Counted from the first letter of the stretch, positions 2,725 through 9,394 are shown. The stretch: DNA of 10,396 nt from a bacterium (GCA_027062325.1 JAMOTN010000022.1:1-10396); one strand, 5' to 3'. A program made the numbers and translations. Notes: generated by a model not told the origin, from the letters alone.

Positions 2725-3804
2725 ATGGGCGTTTGGAGGTATGTGGTAAAGACAACTCATAAAACTCCCAATTTTTGGACGGGACGCGAAAGGTTTTGTT
2801 CAGGGGACAGGTTACTGCTGAACCCTTACGTAGGCTGTGAGGTGGCTTGTCCCCTTTGTTATGCCGCGAATTATCCTTTTAAACTATTCAAGGAGGCAAA
2901 AAATAACAGACTTGTATTTTGTTATATAAACTTACCAAGGGATTTTGACTTGTTTTTAAAAAAAGTTAACTATGCTTTTACTATTTATCTATCTCCTGTT
3001 GCGGATCCATTGCAGCCAGCAGAAAAAGAGTTTGGTTTGACACGCCAAATTGTTGAAGTAGCAAAGCGCTGGGGTTTACCAGTTTCTATTACTACACGTT
3101 GTGAAGTTGATAGCTTTTTACTATCTTATGTGGATCACTTTCAGTTCAGCTTGAATACACTTGATAATAGAAAATGGCGACTTCTCTCTCCAAATGCAAT
3201 GGAGTTGACTTCTTACCTTGAACAAATCAAAGAGGTTTCCCGAGTTAAACCAGTAACTTTAAGAATTGATCCGATAATTTGGCCTTACACGTGGAATGAA
3301 GTGGATGACTTGATCGCGTTTGCACATGAGGCTGATGTAGCTCACGTGACTTTTAGCATTTTGGATTTACCCTCTGGAGGTAGAAGTTTTCTGAGAGGAC
3401 TGATAGGAAATAAAGTTGATTATTATAGCGAGTTTTTTAGAGGACGTTATCAGCTGTATGAGAATATGAGAAATAAACTATTACTTGAGTTGTGGGAAAA
3501 GACGAGAAGTTTGCGAGAGGCAGGGATAGAAATTGGATTTTGTATGGAAAAAGTTGAAGGAATAGATGCAAATCTTTATTTTGCCAAGCTTTCTAATTCG
3601 GCGCCACTCCACTGTGATGGTGTGAAATGGGGAGTTTTTAAAAAAGAAAGAGATGTTTTTAGGCCGTTAGTTTATTGTTCTGGTAATTGTCTTTACTGTT
3701 ATAAAGCAAGTTGCGGCTTAAATTGGCTTGCCATGAGAGGAGAGGGACGTTTTTTGAAAGTAAGTGATTTAAAAGCTAATTCAGAAGAAGCACTATTTAA
3801 TTGA
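2725..3804 (+). CDS. SPL-like radical SAM protein with extra C-terminal Cys cluster
   Basis: Probable radical S-adenosylmethionine enzyme related to the spore photoproduct lyase-like (SplB, COG1533) group; substrate unknown. NPYVGCEVACPLCYA (33-47) contains the CxxxCxxC triad C38/C42/C45 that binds the catalytic [4Fe-4S] cluster, in the NPYxGC context typical of SPL-like proteins. The middle (about 85-280) has barrel-like strands such as FTIYLSPVADP, SITTRCEV and VTLRIDPIIWP. Near the C-terminus a second C-x3-C-x2-C appears (C318/C322/C325, then C330; C297 is also nearby), suggesting an auxiliary iron-sulfur cluster. At 359 residues it is in the usual SPL-like range and looks complete. The start is 8 bases after the previous stop with only a weak GAAGAG site abutting it; a GTG at 2743 preceded by GGAGG is in frame but the spacing of 3 bases is too short. 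True spore photoproduct lyase activity is not implied; nothing in the window points to sporulation. Confidence 0.85.
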   Translation: MGVWRYVVKTTHKTPNFWTGRERFCSGDRLLLNPYVGCEVACPLCYAANYPFKLFKEAKNNRLVFCYINLPRDFDLFLKKVNYAFTIYLSPVADPLQPAEKEFGLTRQIVEVAKRWGLPVSITTRCEVDSFLLSYVDHFQFSLNTLDNRKWRLLSPNAMELTSYLEQIKEVSRVKPVTLRIDPIIWPYTWNEVDDLIAFAHEADVAHVTFSILDLPSGGRSFLRGLIGNKVDYYSEFFRGRYQLYENMRNKLLLELWEKTRSLREAGIEIGFCMEKVEGIDANLYFAKLSNSAPLHCDGVKWGVFKKERDVFRPLVYCSGNCLYCYKASCGLNWLAMRGEGRFLKVSDLKANSEEALFN

Positions 3805-3910: not shown

Positions 3911-4837
3911 ATGGCTGATAAGGTAAAAAAGGTTTTTTGGGAGAAGTTGAAAAAATTCTTAGTTCCAGCAAGTTTTGCTTTTGTAATTGGAATTTTGCTA
4001 TTTGTTTCTTTAAGAATTTATTCAGGTTTAAAAATAACAGCTCAAATTGACAGATGCAATAGTGAATTGAAGTCTATTGCAAAAAAAGTTTTGACTTTTG
4101 TTCAAACTCAAGGAGAGGATCCAGAAAGTTGGCAGGATTTAATAAAGGCGGGAATACTTTCGGAAATTCCATACGATCCATGGGGGAGAGCTTACGAGCT
4201 TCTAGTAGATGCTTGCAAGGTTGTATCAGCTGGTCCTAACGGTAAATTTGGTGATGGGGATGATATAGGTGAGTACTGGATAAAAGATTTGGTTTTGATG
4301 CAGGCATATTTAGATGATGGTGGTACTTACAATGATAGATCAGATGATCTGCTAGTACTTGTTTTTTCTAAAAAAGTGGGCTTTTCTAAAGATAATGTTA
4401 CTGCTGATGATATACTGCAAGATTTTAAGCTAGTAACAAAATATGGGCAGCCTTTGGATATAGCGCAATACATTCCTGTAGATTCCCAAACAGAGTTTTT
4501 CATTGATGCAGATGATGAAAAGACGTTGGTTATCCATCTTCCTCCCAACCATCAGTTGGATGTTTTTAAATATGCAATAAATATTAAGGCTCCCCATGCG
4601 AATGTGATAATGGCCAGAGATGGTGTTCCTGCAGTTCCATCTGGGACCCCAATAGAGATAGAATCTGGGACTTACAATAAATATGCCAATGTTATGAAAA
4701 ATTTGGGAGTTGGAGAAGAGAGTGGGGAAGATAGTGATACTGAAGGTGGAGAAGTGCTCAATTGTAAGAGCGGGACTGTGAAAGCTGCAGATGAGGAAAA
4801 TTCTTCTGAAGAAAATGGGCTTGAAGGAGCTGAATAG
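3911..4837 (+). CDS. Membrane-anchored GspG-like (pseudopilin-related) protein with beta domain and acidic tail
   Basis: Probable cell-envelope protein related to the C-terminal domain of the type II secretion major pseudopilin GspG. A basic N-terminus (MADKVKKVFWEKLKK) precedes one hydrophobic helix (about 17-37). A helical stretch (about 42-84) leads to DPWGRAYE (89-96) and GPNGKFGDGDDI (108-119), the two sequence marks of GspG: the DPWG(R/N)PY turn and the glycine/aspartate loop that binds calcium in that family. The usual prepilin peptidase site (G, then F/M-T-L-I-E) is missing, so it would stay membrane-anchored and not be processed. Residues about 125-252 look like an added beta-sandwich domain with strands such as DLLVLVFSKKV and KTLVIHL and Asp-rich turns. 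Residues 267-308 are Ser/Glu/Gly-rich and acidic. C49 and C102 could pair outside the cell. AGGAGGG at 3898-3904 supports this start. Proximity to a PilB/GspE gene downstream fits a pilus or secretion role, which is inferred. Confidence 0.75.
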   Translation: MADKVKKVFWEKLKKFLVPASFAFVIGILLFVSLRIYSGLKITAQIDRCNSELKSIAKKVLTFVQTQGEDPESWQDLIKAGILSEIPYDPWGRAYELLVDACKVVSAGPNGKFGDGDDIGEYWIKDLVLMQAYLDDGGTYNDRSDDLLVLVFSKKVGFSKDNVTADDILQDFKLVTKYGQPLDIAQYIPVDSQTEFFIDADDEKTLVIHLPPNHQLDVFKYAINIKAPHANVIMARDGVPAVPSGTPIEIESGTYNKYANVMKNLGVGEESGEDSDTEGGEVLNCKSGTVKAADEENSSEENGLEGAE

Positions 4838-5834: not shown

Positions 5835-8456
5835 ATGGATATTGCGTATGCTATAAGCCTCCTCAAAAGTGCCGATGAATCAGAAAGAATTCGTGGAGTT
5901 ATGGCTCTTTCCAATTATCGCGTTGATAAAGTAGCAGCCCAGCATCTAATAGATGTGTTAAAGGGTGATCCTTCTTTTTATGTGCGTCTTCAAGCAGCTA
6001 AAGTTTTAAGAATGTTCAAAATTCAAATAGATACAGCTTCTCTTTACGAGTTGCTGGATTCCGAGAAAGAGATTGTTGAAGTTGTCATAGATATTATTGC
6101 AAATCACGCAAATAAGAAAATATTCAAAGTCTATGCTGAGAGGTTTAGTAAAGATACATCTGTTTCCTCCACGGCCTTAGCTAATTTTGTGGAACTTGCA
6201 GGGAGAATGGGCCAATGGGATGTAGTTATGAAATTTTTGGACAGCCGTTTTTGGAATGTGAGAGATAAAGCAGCCAATGTTTTAGCTTCAGCTGTTAAAG
6301 AAGATACTCAAGTGTTCAAATCACTTTTAGAAATGGTTAGAAGAGATGGAGAAAAAGCGTGGTGGTCCTCTGTTGCTATTTGGAAGGCTTTTAGAAATTT
6401 GGATGATGATATGTTGAATGAATTGGAGCGTTTTCTAAAAGATGAGGGGGAGCTTGGACGGATAGGAGATCGTTCTGTATTTTTGAAGTGGGCTTTATTT
6501 ATGAATGAAAAGTGGAAACTTGATGAGTTTGATAAAGAGTTAACTGCACGCTACTTTGGTTTTGTTTTTAGAGAGTTATTGCCGCAGGAAATTGTTGCTA
6601 AGTTTTCGTTTTTATTAGATGATGCGAACAGAGATGTTAGATATTCAGTAGCTTTCTATTTAAAAGATGCATTGAAAGATCCAGTGTATGATACTTTGCT
6701 TGAAAAGTTGTTTGAAAAAATTGGAATTGAGGGTAAACTCGCTCTTTTTTGTGCCTTTGTTAATGATGGGATTTTTTACGATAGGTGGTTTGAGAAAATA
6801 GTTGAGTTATCAGAACAAAAGGGAAATATTGATGTGTTGAGAAAGTTGTTTTCTGAAAGTGCTAAAAATTTTCCAGAAATTTTAGTTTCCTACATGGAAA
6901 AGTTGAGCTTAGAAGGTCAAGATTTGTTGATGGTGGAGCTTGCTCATAGGAGGTATGAACCTGTTAAAGGTATTTTGCTAAAACGTTTTGATGAAAAGAT
7001 AACAGTTGAATTTTTTAGGGCTCTTGCGAATTTCGCCCAGGACTTAGAAGTGGCTTCTAAACTTTTGGAAGTATTAAAAAAATTACCTTTGAAGTTTTGG
7101 GAAAGAGTGTATGAGGCAATTGTAAGTTTGGCAAGAAGTCAACCGGAGCTCATTTTGGATACGTATAATCATTGTGATTGGGCTAAAAGAGCACTTTTGA
7201 AAAAAATCATTAAGCAAGTTACTTCTGAAATTACAGGTACTTTGATAGAAGCTTTGTCTTCTAAAAATGGCATAGTTACTTCAATGGTCATGGAAGTTTT
7301 ATCTTCAAGTAAGGAGGCCATACTTTCTTTGATAGGACTTTTCAAGAGCGAAAGTTGGATAATGCGTCGACGAGCATATGAAGCTTTGAAAATGGCAGAT
7401 CCTTATTTTACGGCCGAAAAACTTTTTTTTGTAGTTAAGTCTGATCCTGATGAGAATATAATGTATTGGGCTGAAAGATTACTTGCATACTGGTCCGAGA
7501 GGATAGTAGACAAGTTGTCTGAGGCTCTGAATGAGCGAAATTTACATCTTAACATATTAGTTGTTAGAGTTATAAGGCATTTGAATTCGCTTGAGATAAA
7601 AGAGTTGCTCTCTCATGCTTTGCGAGATGAGTTTGATGAGGTTAGACTTGAGGCTCTCAGGGCTTTAAAAAATCATCCGTTTGTGGAGTTTTTAGATTTA
7701 TTGAAGAAATCGTGGGGAATGGAGTCGCGGGCGTGGAAGGTAGAAGCGTTGAAAATAATGGCTTTTCTAGGAGAAGTTGAGTTGTACGATGAGGTTGCTA
7801 AGTCAGGAGACTTTGAGATTTTAAGCGCACTTCTAGAGGGGCTTTTAGAAGCGATAGAGGTAGGGGTAAATAAGGTAGAATATATGAGAATAATAAAGGG
7901 AGTATTAGAGAAAAGTTCTATTTTGGGAGAGCAATATTTTGAAGATTTGGTATTGGTTTTTCATGAGGAGGAGTGGTTTGCCAAATTTTTTGAAGAGGTG
8001 AAAGAAAGGCTTTTGGAAAATCAATTAAAGTTAGCAGAATTACTTATGAATAATCGTAAGGAAATTCTGGAGGATAGAGAATTTAGCAAGTGGCTTCATG
8101 CGACGGGATTTTATTCTAAAGTGCTGACAGTTGTTGGAGTAGATTTTGATAAGTTGTTGTCTAGTGAGAAACTGTATGATTCTGATGAAAGGGTAATTGG
8201 CTTTAAAGTTCCAATTATAAAAGGTTACGAAAAAATTTCTGCCGAACTTATTAAAAATCCGGAGAAAGCGCTTCAGTTGCTGAGGGGGGATAAAAGTTTT
8301 ATAGGAAGTTTTTACAAAGTGTTGGCTCTAAAGCTTGCAGGTTATGATGATAAGGCTTCCCAGTTGTTTTGTAAGATGAGAAATTTAGTTAGCAGGGTTG
8401 AAAAAGGGACAGCTGTGAAGTTGATAATGTACCTTGAGAAGGTGTTGCAAAAGTGA
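5835..8456 (+). CDS. Large HEAT-repeat scaffold protein
   Basis: A 873-residue, almost wholly helical protein, probably cytoplasmic since no signal peptide or membrane helix is visible. HEAT-type units with the D..VR..A...L pattern recur: V51-RLQAAKVL, V142-RDKAANVLA, V268-RYSVAFYL, WIMRRRAYEALK near 508, DENIMYWAERLL near 542 and DEVRLEALRAL near 603. The clearest units are in about 1-225 and 490-660; between and after them the helices are more degenerate. No catalytic motif is recognisable, so a protein-binding scaffold role is the best guess. The start has a good GGAGGG site at 5823-5828. The stop codon overlaps the next start as GTGA, coupling it tightly to the MiaA-like gene. HEAT repeats also occur in phycobilisome lyase-like and adaptor families, but nothing points to those here. 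Confidence 0.75.
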   Translation: MDIAYAISLLKSADESERIRGVMALSNYRVDKVAAQHLIDVLKGDPSFYVRLQAAKVLRMFKIQIDTASLYELLDSEKEIVEVVIDIIANHANKKIFKVYAERFSKDTSVSSTALANFVELAGRMGQWDVVMKFLDSRFWNVRDKAANVLASAVKEDTQVFKSLLEMVRRDGEKAWWSSVAIWKAFRNLDDDMLNELERFLKDEGELGRIGDRSVFLKWALFMNEKWKLDEFDKELTARYFGFVFRELLPQEIVAKFSFLLDDANRDVRYSVAFYLKDALKDPVYDTLLEKLFEKIGIEGKLALFCAFVNDGIFYDRWFEKIVELSEQKGNIDVLRKLFSESAKNFPEILVSYMEKLSLEGQDLLMVELAHRRYEPVKGILLKRFDEKITVEFFRALANFAQDLEVASKLLEVLKKLPLKFWERVYEAIVSLARSQPELILDTYNHCDWAKRALLKKIIKQVTSEITGTLIEALSSKNGIVTSMVMEVLSSSKEAILSLIGLFKSESWIMRRRAYEALKMADPYFTAEKLFFVVKSDPDENIMYWAERLLAYWSERIVDKLSEALNERNLHLNILVVRVIRHLNSLEIKELLSHALRDEFDEVRLEALRALKNHPFVEFLDLLKKSWGMESRAWKVEALKIMAFLGEVELYDEVAKSGDFEILSALLEGLLEAIEVGVNKVEYMRIIKGVLEKSSILGEQYFEDLVLVFHEEEWFAKFFEEVKERLLENQLKLAELLMNNRKEILEDREFSKWLHATGFYSKVLTVVGVDFDKLLSSEKLYDSDERVIGFKVPIIKGYEKISAELIKNPEKALQLLRGDKSFIGSFYKVLALKLAGYDDKASQLFCKMRNLVSRVEKGTAVKLIMYLEKVLQK

Positions 8457-9394
8457 GAAGAGAGAATATTTTTTTAAAGAGAGGAGTGCCGTTGATTTGT
8501 ACGGGGAAAACTGATGATGCTTTAGAATTGGCTTCCTACCTTGAAAGTAAAGGAATTGAAGCTGAAATTATCAACGTTGATTCCAAGGGAGTTTATAAAT
8601 ACCTCAAAGCTTTGTGCGCCATTCCTGAAAGGAAGCATCACCTTGTGGAATTTTTACCTCCTGACAAAAGAATAAGTGCTGTTTTTTTTGCAAAGCTTAT
8701 GAATTACTGCTTATATTCGATGTTTAACAAGGGCATTTTTCCAATTTTGTGTGGAGGGACTGGCTTTTATTTTGAAGTTTTCTTCTATGGTGTTGATAAT
8801 ATACCGGCTGATGGTGAACTTAGAAATTTGATTAGTGTTGCTCTAGAAGATGATGAGTTACGTTTTAAAATATGGCGCTATTTAAAGAAAGTATATGAAT
8901 ATCAGATTCACTTCAATGATAAAAAAAGATTGAGCCGATGGATAGAGAATTATGTTTTGGTGGGTTCAAAGGTGAGAAAAAAAAGATTTATGAGTTTGTT
9001 TTTTCCTGTCTTTTTTCATAAGAGGATAGATTTTGATGAAAGATTGAAAGAGAGATATAAAACTCGTTATTTAAAGATGTTGGAAGAAGGAGCCTTAGAA
9101 GAGGTGAAGTTTGTAGTTGAAAATTACGGAGTAGATGCGCCTGCTTGTTATGATGTTATATCTTTCGATGATACTTACGATATTTTATTGGGAAAGATAG
9201 ATGAGGAAAAGGCTGCTTTTAATTATTCTAAAAAAGCATGGCGTTTTGCTAAAAAGCAGGAGAGGTGGTTTAATAGATATGAACGTTATGCTCAGCAAGA
9301 GCGATGTTATTATCAGAGATACGGTAATGTAAAAGAGCTATTTGAGGTGGCAGATAAAATTTTGGATTTTTACAGAGATACAGAATTACTTTAA
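8453..9394 (+). CDS. miaA: Divergent MiaA-family (tRNA dimethylallyltransferase-like) protein
   Basis: MiaA transfers a dimethylallyl group to the N6 of A37 in tRNAs reading codons that start with U. Full length (313 residues; family about 300-320) and the family landmarks come in order: GKT of the P-loop (18-20), DS (43-44, matching the catalytic-Asp ADS motif), HHL (62-64), CGGTGFYFE (100-108, matching GGTGLY with the catalytic Thr), PADGELR (118-124), HFNDKKR (153-159, matching HPNDxRR), RIDFDERLKERY (191-202), MLEEGALEEV (209-218) and KAWRFAKKQERWF (261-273, matching the RYAKRQxTWF motif). Deviations: the first P-loop Gly is Pro13 (GPTASGKT becomes PLICTGKT), the Q of DSxQVY is Gly46, and the Q.IGYKE motif is replaced by CYDVISFDD (232-240). 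It is either a very divergent working MiaA or a paralogue with altered function. The GTG start overlaps the upstream stop by 4 bases; GAGAAGG at 8435-8441 is a usable ribosome site. Confidence 0.75.
   Translation: MRRENIFLKRGVPLICTGKTDDALELASYLESKGIEAEIINVDSKGVYKYLKALCAIPERKHHLVEFLPPDKRISAVFFAKLMNYCLYSMFNKGIFPILCGGTGFYFEVFFYGVDNIPADGELRNLISVALEDDELRFKIWRYLKKVYEYQIHFNDKKRLSRWIENYVLVGSKVRKKRFMSLFFPVFFHKRIDFDERLKERYKTRYLKMLEEGALEEVKFVVENYGVDAPACYDVISFDDTYDILLGKIDEEKAAFNYSKKAWRFAKKQERWFNRYERYAQQERCYYQRYGNVKELFEVADKILDFYRDTELL

Follow-up and report, generated by a model that had tools for sequence, protein, structure and literature searches.

A divergent MiaA-like protein with a contracted P-loop encoded by a deep-branching bacterium

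MiaA attaches a prenyl group to position 37 of tRNA. A gene of a deep-branching bacterium encodes a protein that follows the order of MiaA landmarks and departs from them within the active site, and the question is what such a protein can do. A preliminary description of the locus offered three readings: a paralogue with a new substrate, a non-catalytic RNA-binding role, and a rapidly evolving single-copy MiaA. In this study, the gene was examined together with its window (the whole 10,396-nucleotide stretch of DNA analysed, which is one entire contig of a genome of 1.65 Mb in 81 contigs, with an estimated completeness of 83.9%).

Family assignment, fold and neighbourhood

The open reading frame (ORF) at 8453-9394 encodes 313 amino acids from a GTG start. 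It is uninterrupted and its coding signal is ordinary relative to its window, in agreement with the full-length frame reported earlier. In scans of the Pfam and NCBIfam collections, the protein matched the IPPT/MiaA family alone. PF01715 (IPPT) matched residues 61-275 with 114.5 bits, against a curated Pfam cut-off of 23.6 bits, and it was the only Pfam match, the adenylate isopentenyltransferase family not being hit. The sole NCBIfam match, TIGR00174 (miaA), scored 101.6 bits, under its curated cut-off of 148.65 bits; the MiaB and RimO proteins of the same genome are also under their own equivalog cut-offs. Since the score lies under the TIGR00174 cut-off and the P-loop departs from the family pattern, the protein is filed here as an IPPT-family member that probably works like MiaA, and is not certified as a MiaA equivalog.

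By sequence, the nearest proteins of solved structure are bacterial MiaAs. An AlphaFold2 model of the protein (mean pLDDT 88, pTM 0.82, with residues 1-9 at pLDDT below 50) adopts the tRNA-IPT fold with its insertion domain. Compared to the E. coli MiaA-tRNA complexes, the model gave Z scores of 25.1 over 280 residues (3foz) and 25.0 (2zm5), while a plant adenylate isopentenyltransferase (21.4) and nucleotide kinases (about 11) scored lower. The structural comparison proposed in the preliminary description thus returned a clean MiaA fold.

Table 1. Features of the miaA-like gene and its immediate neighbours; coordinates are those of the window
Feature	Coordinates	Strand	Basis and remarks
HEAT-repeat protein, 873 aa, upstream	5835..8456	+	ORF call; PF13646, 67.5 bits
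MiaA-like (PF01715, IPPT) gene	8453..9394	+	ORF call, PF01715/TIGR00174 scores, model fold, coding signal
Contracted P-loop VPLIC-TGKT, residues 12-20	8486..8512	+	Alignments, AlphaFold2 secondary structure, survey of 144 homologues
DSKG instead of DSxQ, residues 43-46	8579..8590	+	Alignments; Asp43 and Ser44 retained, Gln replaced by Gly
LCAIP instead of GTAKP, residues 54-58	8612..8626	+	Alignments; tRNA-binding Lys56 (E. coli) corresponds to Ile57
GGT, residues 101-103, conserved	8753..8761	+	Alignments
Arg159 and Arg162, retained equivalents of tRNA-binding Arg167 and Arg170	8927..8938	+	Alignments, roles from PMC8234997
Arg205, retained equivalent of DMAPP/diphosphate-binding Arg217	9065..9067	+	Alignments, roles from PMC8234997
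CYDVISFDD instead of Q-x-IGYKE, residues 232-240	9146..9172	+	Alignments
Lys267-Lys-Gln269, retained equivalent of K280-R-Q	9251..9259	+	Alignments
PilB/GspE-type ATPase, downstream, cut by contig end	9433..10395	+	ORF call, family scans

The tight coupling to a HEAT-repeat gene and the pilus ATPase gene downstream, both pointed out previously, are borne out: the HEAT gene overlaps the start of the miaA-like gene by four bases (GTGA, 8453-8456), and the ATPase is of the PilB type. This operon context is real and points to no particular function. Further upstream of the cluster, window positions 3911-4837 encode a membrane-anchored protein with DPWGxxY...GPNGKFGDGDDI, typical of type II pseudopilins (GspG-like), for which no match was found in Pfam or NCBIfam. 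Positions 2725-3804 encode a radical-SAM protein nearest to the PA0069 family, with a score far under the cut-off and no Pfam match. The 171-aa protein encoded at 2201-2716 is hydrophobic in an N-terminal segment and has a long, Glu/Asp-rich acidic tail, and its low-complexity tract is mirrored by ORFs on the opposite strand.

The P-loop and other functional residues

Positions of the reference enzyme are numbered after what we take to be the E. coli MiaA sequence. Its residues match the list given in PMC8234997 as well as the 2zm5 alignment.

In an alignment with 38 homologues from diverse phyla, the P-loop region reads VPLI----CTGKT against a typical IIxGPTASGKT, and a second alignment agrees. 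About four residues (GPTA) of GPTASGKT are apparently absent, including the equivalent of the catalytic Thr19. In the AlphaFold2 model, strand 1 spans residues 12-16 (VPLIC) and helix 1 begins at T20, leaving T17-G18-K19 alone in between, whereas six residues (GPTASG, G13-G18) separate the same two elements in a control model of a canonical homologue. A third alignment suggested instead a two-residue insertion in the P-loop, which was set aside because AlphaFold2, when fed this same alignment, still put strand 1 at residues 12-16. The contraction is thus supported by two of the three alignments and by the model, and these results, together with the canonical control, lead us to conclude that the loop is contracted and has lost its counterpart of E. 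coli Thr19. The replacement of the first P-loop glycine by Pro13, noted in the preliminary description, correctly marked an altered loop but understated the change. The same description listed Asp43 and Thr103 as the catalytic positions kept; both residues are present (Thr103 within GGTGFY), but the catalytic role belongs to the P-loop threonine (Thr19 in E. coli), for which the ORF protein has no equivalent.

Such a loop is without parallel among the 144 distinct homologues surveyed in the sampled genomes. GxT/S precedes GK[ST] in 142 of them (one reading SPT), the other two being a GPTATHKS and a frameshifted record (L115) with GPTAS in another frame, and every readable homologue has Thr or Ser at the Thr19 position. 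In the ORF protein, the pattern GxTxxGK[ST] with the catalytic threonine was not found, and only TGKT follows strand 1. A hidden frameshift within the P-loop was ruled out, as the GPT motif is absent from both other frames. A search for GPTAxxGK across the genome also gave no match, a result that says little taken alone. The L115 record (CANPWU010000026.1, uncultured Clostridia) has a miaA gene frameshifted within the P-loop at about 3960-4010, with GPTAS in one frame and GKT onward in another. This frameshift probably reflects an error of assembly or a pseudogene, and the record was rejected as a second MiaA lacking the P-loop.

The consequences of losing this threonine have been measured in related enzymes. 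The T19A mutation of E. coli MiaA lowers kcat 600-fold, and the matching mutations T12A in Tit1 and T32A in TRIT1 yield inactive proteins (PMC7200024). Among the E. coli mutants tested, loss of the MiaA/TRIT1 P-loop threonine is the worst for catalysis. The missing residue is strong evidence against ordinary catalysis by the ORF protein.

The remainder of the active site is largely kept. In E. coli MiaA, mutagenesis or structures assign K23, T24, H67 and R217 to DMAPP binding, and K56, R167, R170 and K280 bind tRNA, T19 and Y47 act in the transition state and D42 is the general base, as listed in a review (PMC8234997). Nine of these 11 residues are retained in the ORF protein, the exceptions being T19 and K56. 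All four DMAPP ligands are present (as K19, T20, H62 and R205), as are the general base (D43) and the tyrosine (Y48), and three of the four tRNA ligands are found as R159, R162 and K267. The fourth, Lys56, is lost with the change of GTAKP to LCAIP, which the preliminary description did not list. It did report Gly46 at the glutamine of the DSxQ motif, for which the functional role is taken from work on DSMQ (PMC7200024); the glycine is there, but this position is non-diagnostic because E. coli MiaA has Leu at it. The reading of ISFDD in place of IGYKE holds, and the motif glycine, which is Ser in the ORF protein, is retained in 76 of 77 homologues. Of the 51 columns in which conservation reaches at least 85%, the ORF protein retains 36 (71%), compared to 79% for the lowest other homologue and a median of 96%.

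Substrate tRNAs, copy number and evolutionary rate

ARAGORN identified 43 tRNAs in the genome. All nine UNN-reading tRNAs (Phe, Leu x2, Ser x3, Tyr, Cys and Trp) carry A36-A37-A38, which occurs in no other tRNA. A tRNA-Leu with anticodon AAG lies on the minus strand at L082 100-184 (contig C66:17818-17901), while Leu-UAG and Leu-GAG, as well as Thr-CGT, were not found among the ARAGORN calls. These gaps suggest that some tRNA genes may be in sequence missing from the assembly. The nearly full set suggests that true completeness may exceed the estimate. Partner enzymes are also present. A MiaB-like protein (L032), with MiaB as its best equivalog at 281 bits against a cut-off of 355, has all six cysteines, namely CNNFCSYC (CxxxCxxC) and three N-terminal ones. 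RimO scores 294 bits against a cut-off of 357. IspH, the DMAPP-forming enzyme, scores above its cut-off.

A search of the genome for another miaA, as previously proposed, was made with three models (Pfam IPPT, TIGR00174 and a 78-sequence profile), and neither a second gene nor a contig-end fragment was found in the assembly, which is estimated to cover about 84% of the genome. The absence of a second miaA there agrees with part of the refuting outcome that the preliminary description had set out. The four strongest weak profile matches fell on the P-loops of HslU-, ClpX- and Clp-like proteins and of another ATPase, all of which are normal. The MiaA score of this genome is the lowest among 41 sampled genomes, only one of which (G030) has two miaA genes. 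The two G030 copies, at C53:4510-5220 and C60:12579-13265 (L259 and L258), score 198 and 151 bits, and one of them is rather divergent.

The comparison genomes share only the domain with this bacterium, and apparently none comes from its own phylum. Close relatives with the same changes were found neither in GTDB species genomes, searched with single-protein patterns, nor in viral contigs, and a profile scan recovered ordinary MiaA only. Across 386 whole genomes, no identity to the ORF protein exceeded 36% among the matches listed. In trees of matched genomes, the terminal branch of this lineage is 2.4 to 2.6 times the median for MiaA, and 2.0 times for both MiaB and RimO. Because the MiaB and RimO branches are also long, most of the MiaA divergence is lineage-wide, with MiaA evolving somewhat faster.

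Candidate explanations and known systems

The reading that we favour, with modest confidence, is that the ORF product is the lineage's own fast-evolving tRNA A37 prenyltransferase, which works like MiaA with a remodelled active site. It is favoured because the gene is single-copy, the tRNAs are intact, a MiaB-like protein is present, and the catalytic and DMAPP-binding residues are otherwise kept. Among the three readings of the preliminary description, the rapidly evolving single-copy MiaA is accordingly the best-fitting, being the sole match in a genome with long MiaB and RimO branches, A36-A37-A38 tRNAs, MiaB and IspH. In this scheme, the protein would bind the anticodon loop of the nine UNN-reading tRNAs, Asp43 would serve as general base, and the dimethylallyl group of DMAPP would be transferred to N6 of A37, to which the MiaB-like protein could then add a methylthio group. 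The activity is one that we infer. The function of Thr19 may have been taken over by another group, with Thr17 and Thr103 as candidates, or its loss may be tolerated at a lower rate. Points against a working MiaA are the losses of the P-loop threonine, Lys56 and the IGYKE glycine, the low share of conserved columns retained (36 of 51), the TIGR00174 score under its cut-off, and a branch that exceeds the MiaB and RimO branches in length. As the lost threonine argues against ordinary catalysis, three alternatives keep some weight.

First, the assembly may have missed a canonical miaA, and the copy at 8453-9394 may be a paralogue or pseudo-enzyme that binds tRNA with weak or no catalysis. The incomplete assembly would leave room for such a gene, the MiaB-like protein would require i6A37, two miaA genes do occur in at least one sampled genome, and the catalytic threonine is lost while tRNA-binding Arg159, Arg162 and Lys267 are kept. 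We regard this explanation as rather unlikely: three models detected no second copy or fragment, duplicates occur in just 1 of 41 genomes, the set of 43 tRNAs hints at higher completeness, and a pure binding protein would not be expected to keep Asp43 and every DMAPP ligand. The non-catalytic RNA-binding role suggested earlier is weakened by the retention of these same residues, and it keeps some weight because the P-loop threonine is gone.

Second, i6A37 may have been lost or be in the process of being lost in this lineage, with relaxed constraint on the gene. The lowest MiaA score of 41 genomes, the longest branch, the loss of several active-site motifs and the retention of only 71% of near-invariant columns are in line with decay. 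Decay is nevertheless quite unlikely, as the frame is uninterrupted with an ordinary codon signal, D43, K19, R205, GGT and the arginines are all spared, the protein is modelled at a mean pLDDT of 88, and the nine A36-A37-A38 tRNAs and a six-cysteine MiaB-like protein are retained. Furthermore, RimO, which is not of the same pathway, is likewise long-branched.

Third, the shortened loop may accommodate a different prenyl donor or RNA acceptor. The three changed regions, namely the diphosphate loop, the motif for A37 recognition and the GTAKP segment, all face the substrates according to published roles (PMC8234997, PMC7200024), and the collections searched (GTDB species genomes, viral contigs and 386 genomes) contain no close relative. 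A new substrate is very improbable, since nothing positive points to another donor or acceptor, and otherwise no enzyme would be left for the usual tRNA substrates, every one of which is present; the paralogue with a new substrate put forward in the preliminary description therefore finds no positive evidence.

Finally, an erroneous consensus, short of 12 in-frame bases in the P-loop, is scarcely credible: the contracted stretch does resemble LICGPTATGKT less GPTA, the public L115 miaA is frameshifted at exactly the same place and the loop is known from one genome of the lineage, but the missing motif is absent from the alternative frames and a single indel cannot explain why Lys56, DSxQ, the IGYKE glycine and further sites were lost independently.

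A bolder proposal, which we consider doubtful, is that the only tRNA prenyltransferase in a lineage of phylum rank has a collapsed P-loop, lacks the otherwise invariant catalytic threonine, and performs or has altered its chemistry by way of a relocated activating group, a different prenyl donor or a purely RNA-binding role. A natural homologue lacking the threonine, in a genome that retains every tRNA target and the MiaB step, would represent either a second route to DMAPP activation or a case in which i6A37 was shed while the rest of the pathway was kept.

Compared to known systems, the ORF protein is closest to MiaA itself (E. coli, 2zm5/3foz; TIGR00174, PF01715). The two share a full-length fold match (Z 25), the order of landmarks, GGTxxY and AKxQ, the general base Asp, the Tyr, the DMAPP ligands K/T/H/R and the tRNA ligands R/R/K, and a single copy alongside intact A36-A37-A38 tRNAs. 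They differ in the contracted P-loop without Thr19, the loss of Lys56 and ISFDD for IGYKE, and the ORF protein scores under the TIGR00174 cut-off, with 36% identity or less to any homologue among the matches listed. The eukaryotic tRNA isopentenyltransferases Mod5, Tit1 and TRIT1 (3eph) share the fold (Z 22.6) and the general base; however, they keep the P-loop threonine, whose mutation kills activity, and have a C-terminal zinc finger, which the ORF protein lacks. The adenylate isopentenyltransferases (plant 3a8t and bacterial Tzs 2ze5) share the core fold (Z 21.4 and 17.6), the Asp base and the Arg, but their fold scores are lower and their family gives no Pfam match, whereas the ORF protein possesses the tRNA-binding arginines and the insertion domain of MiaA.
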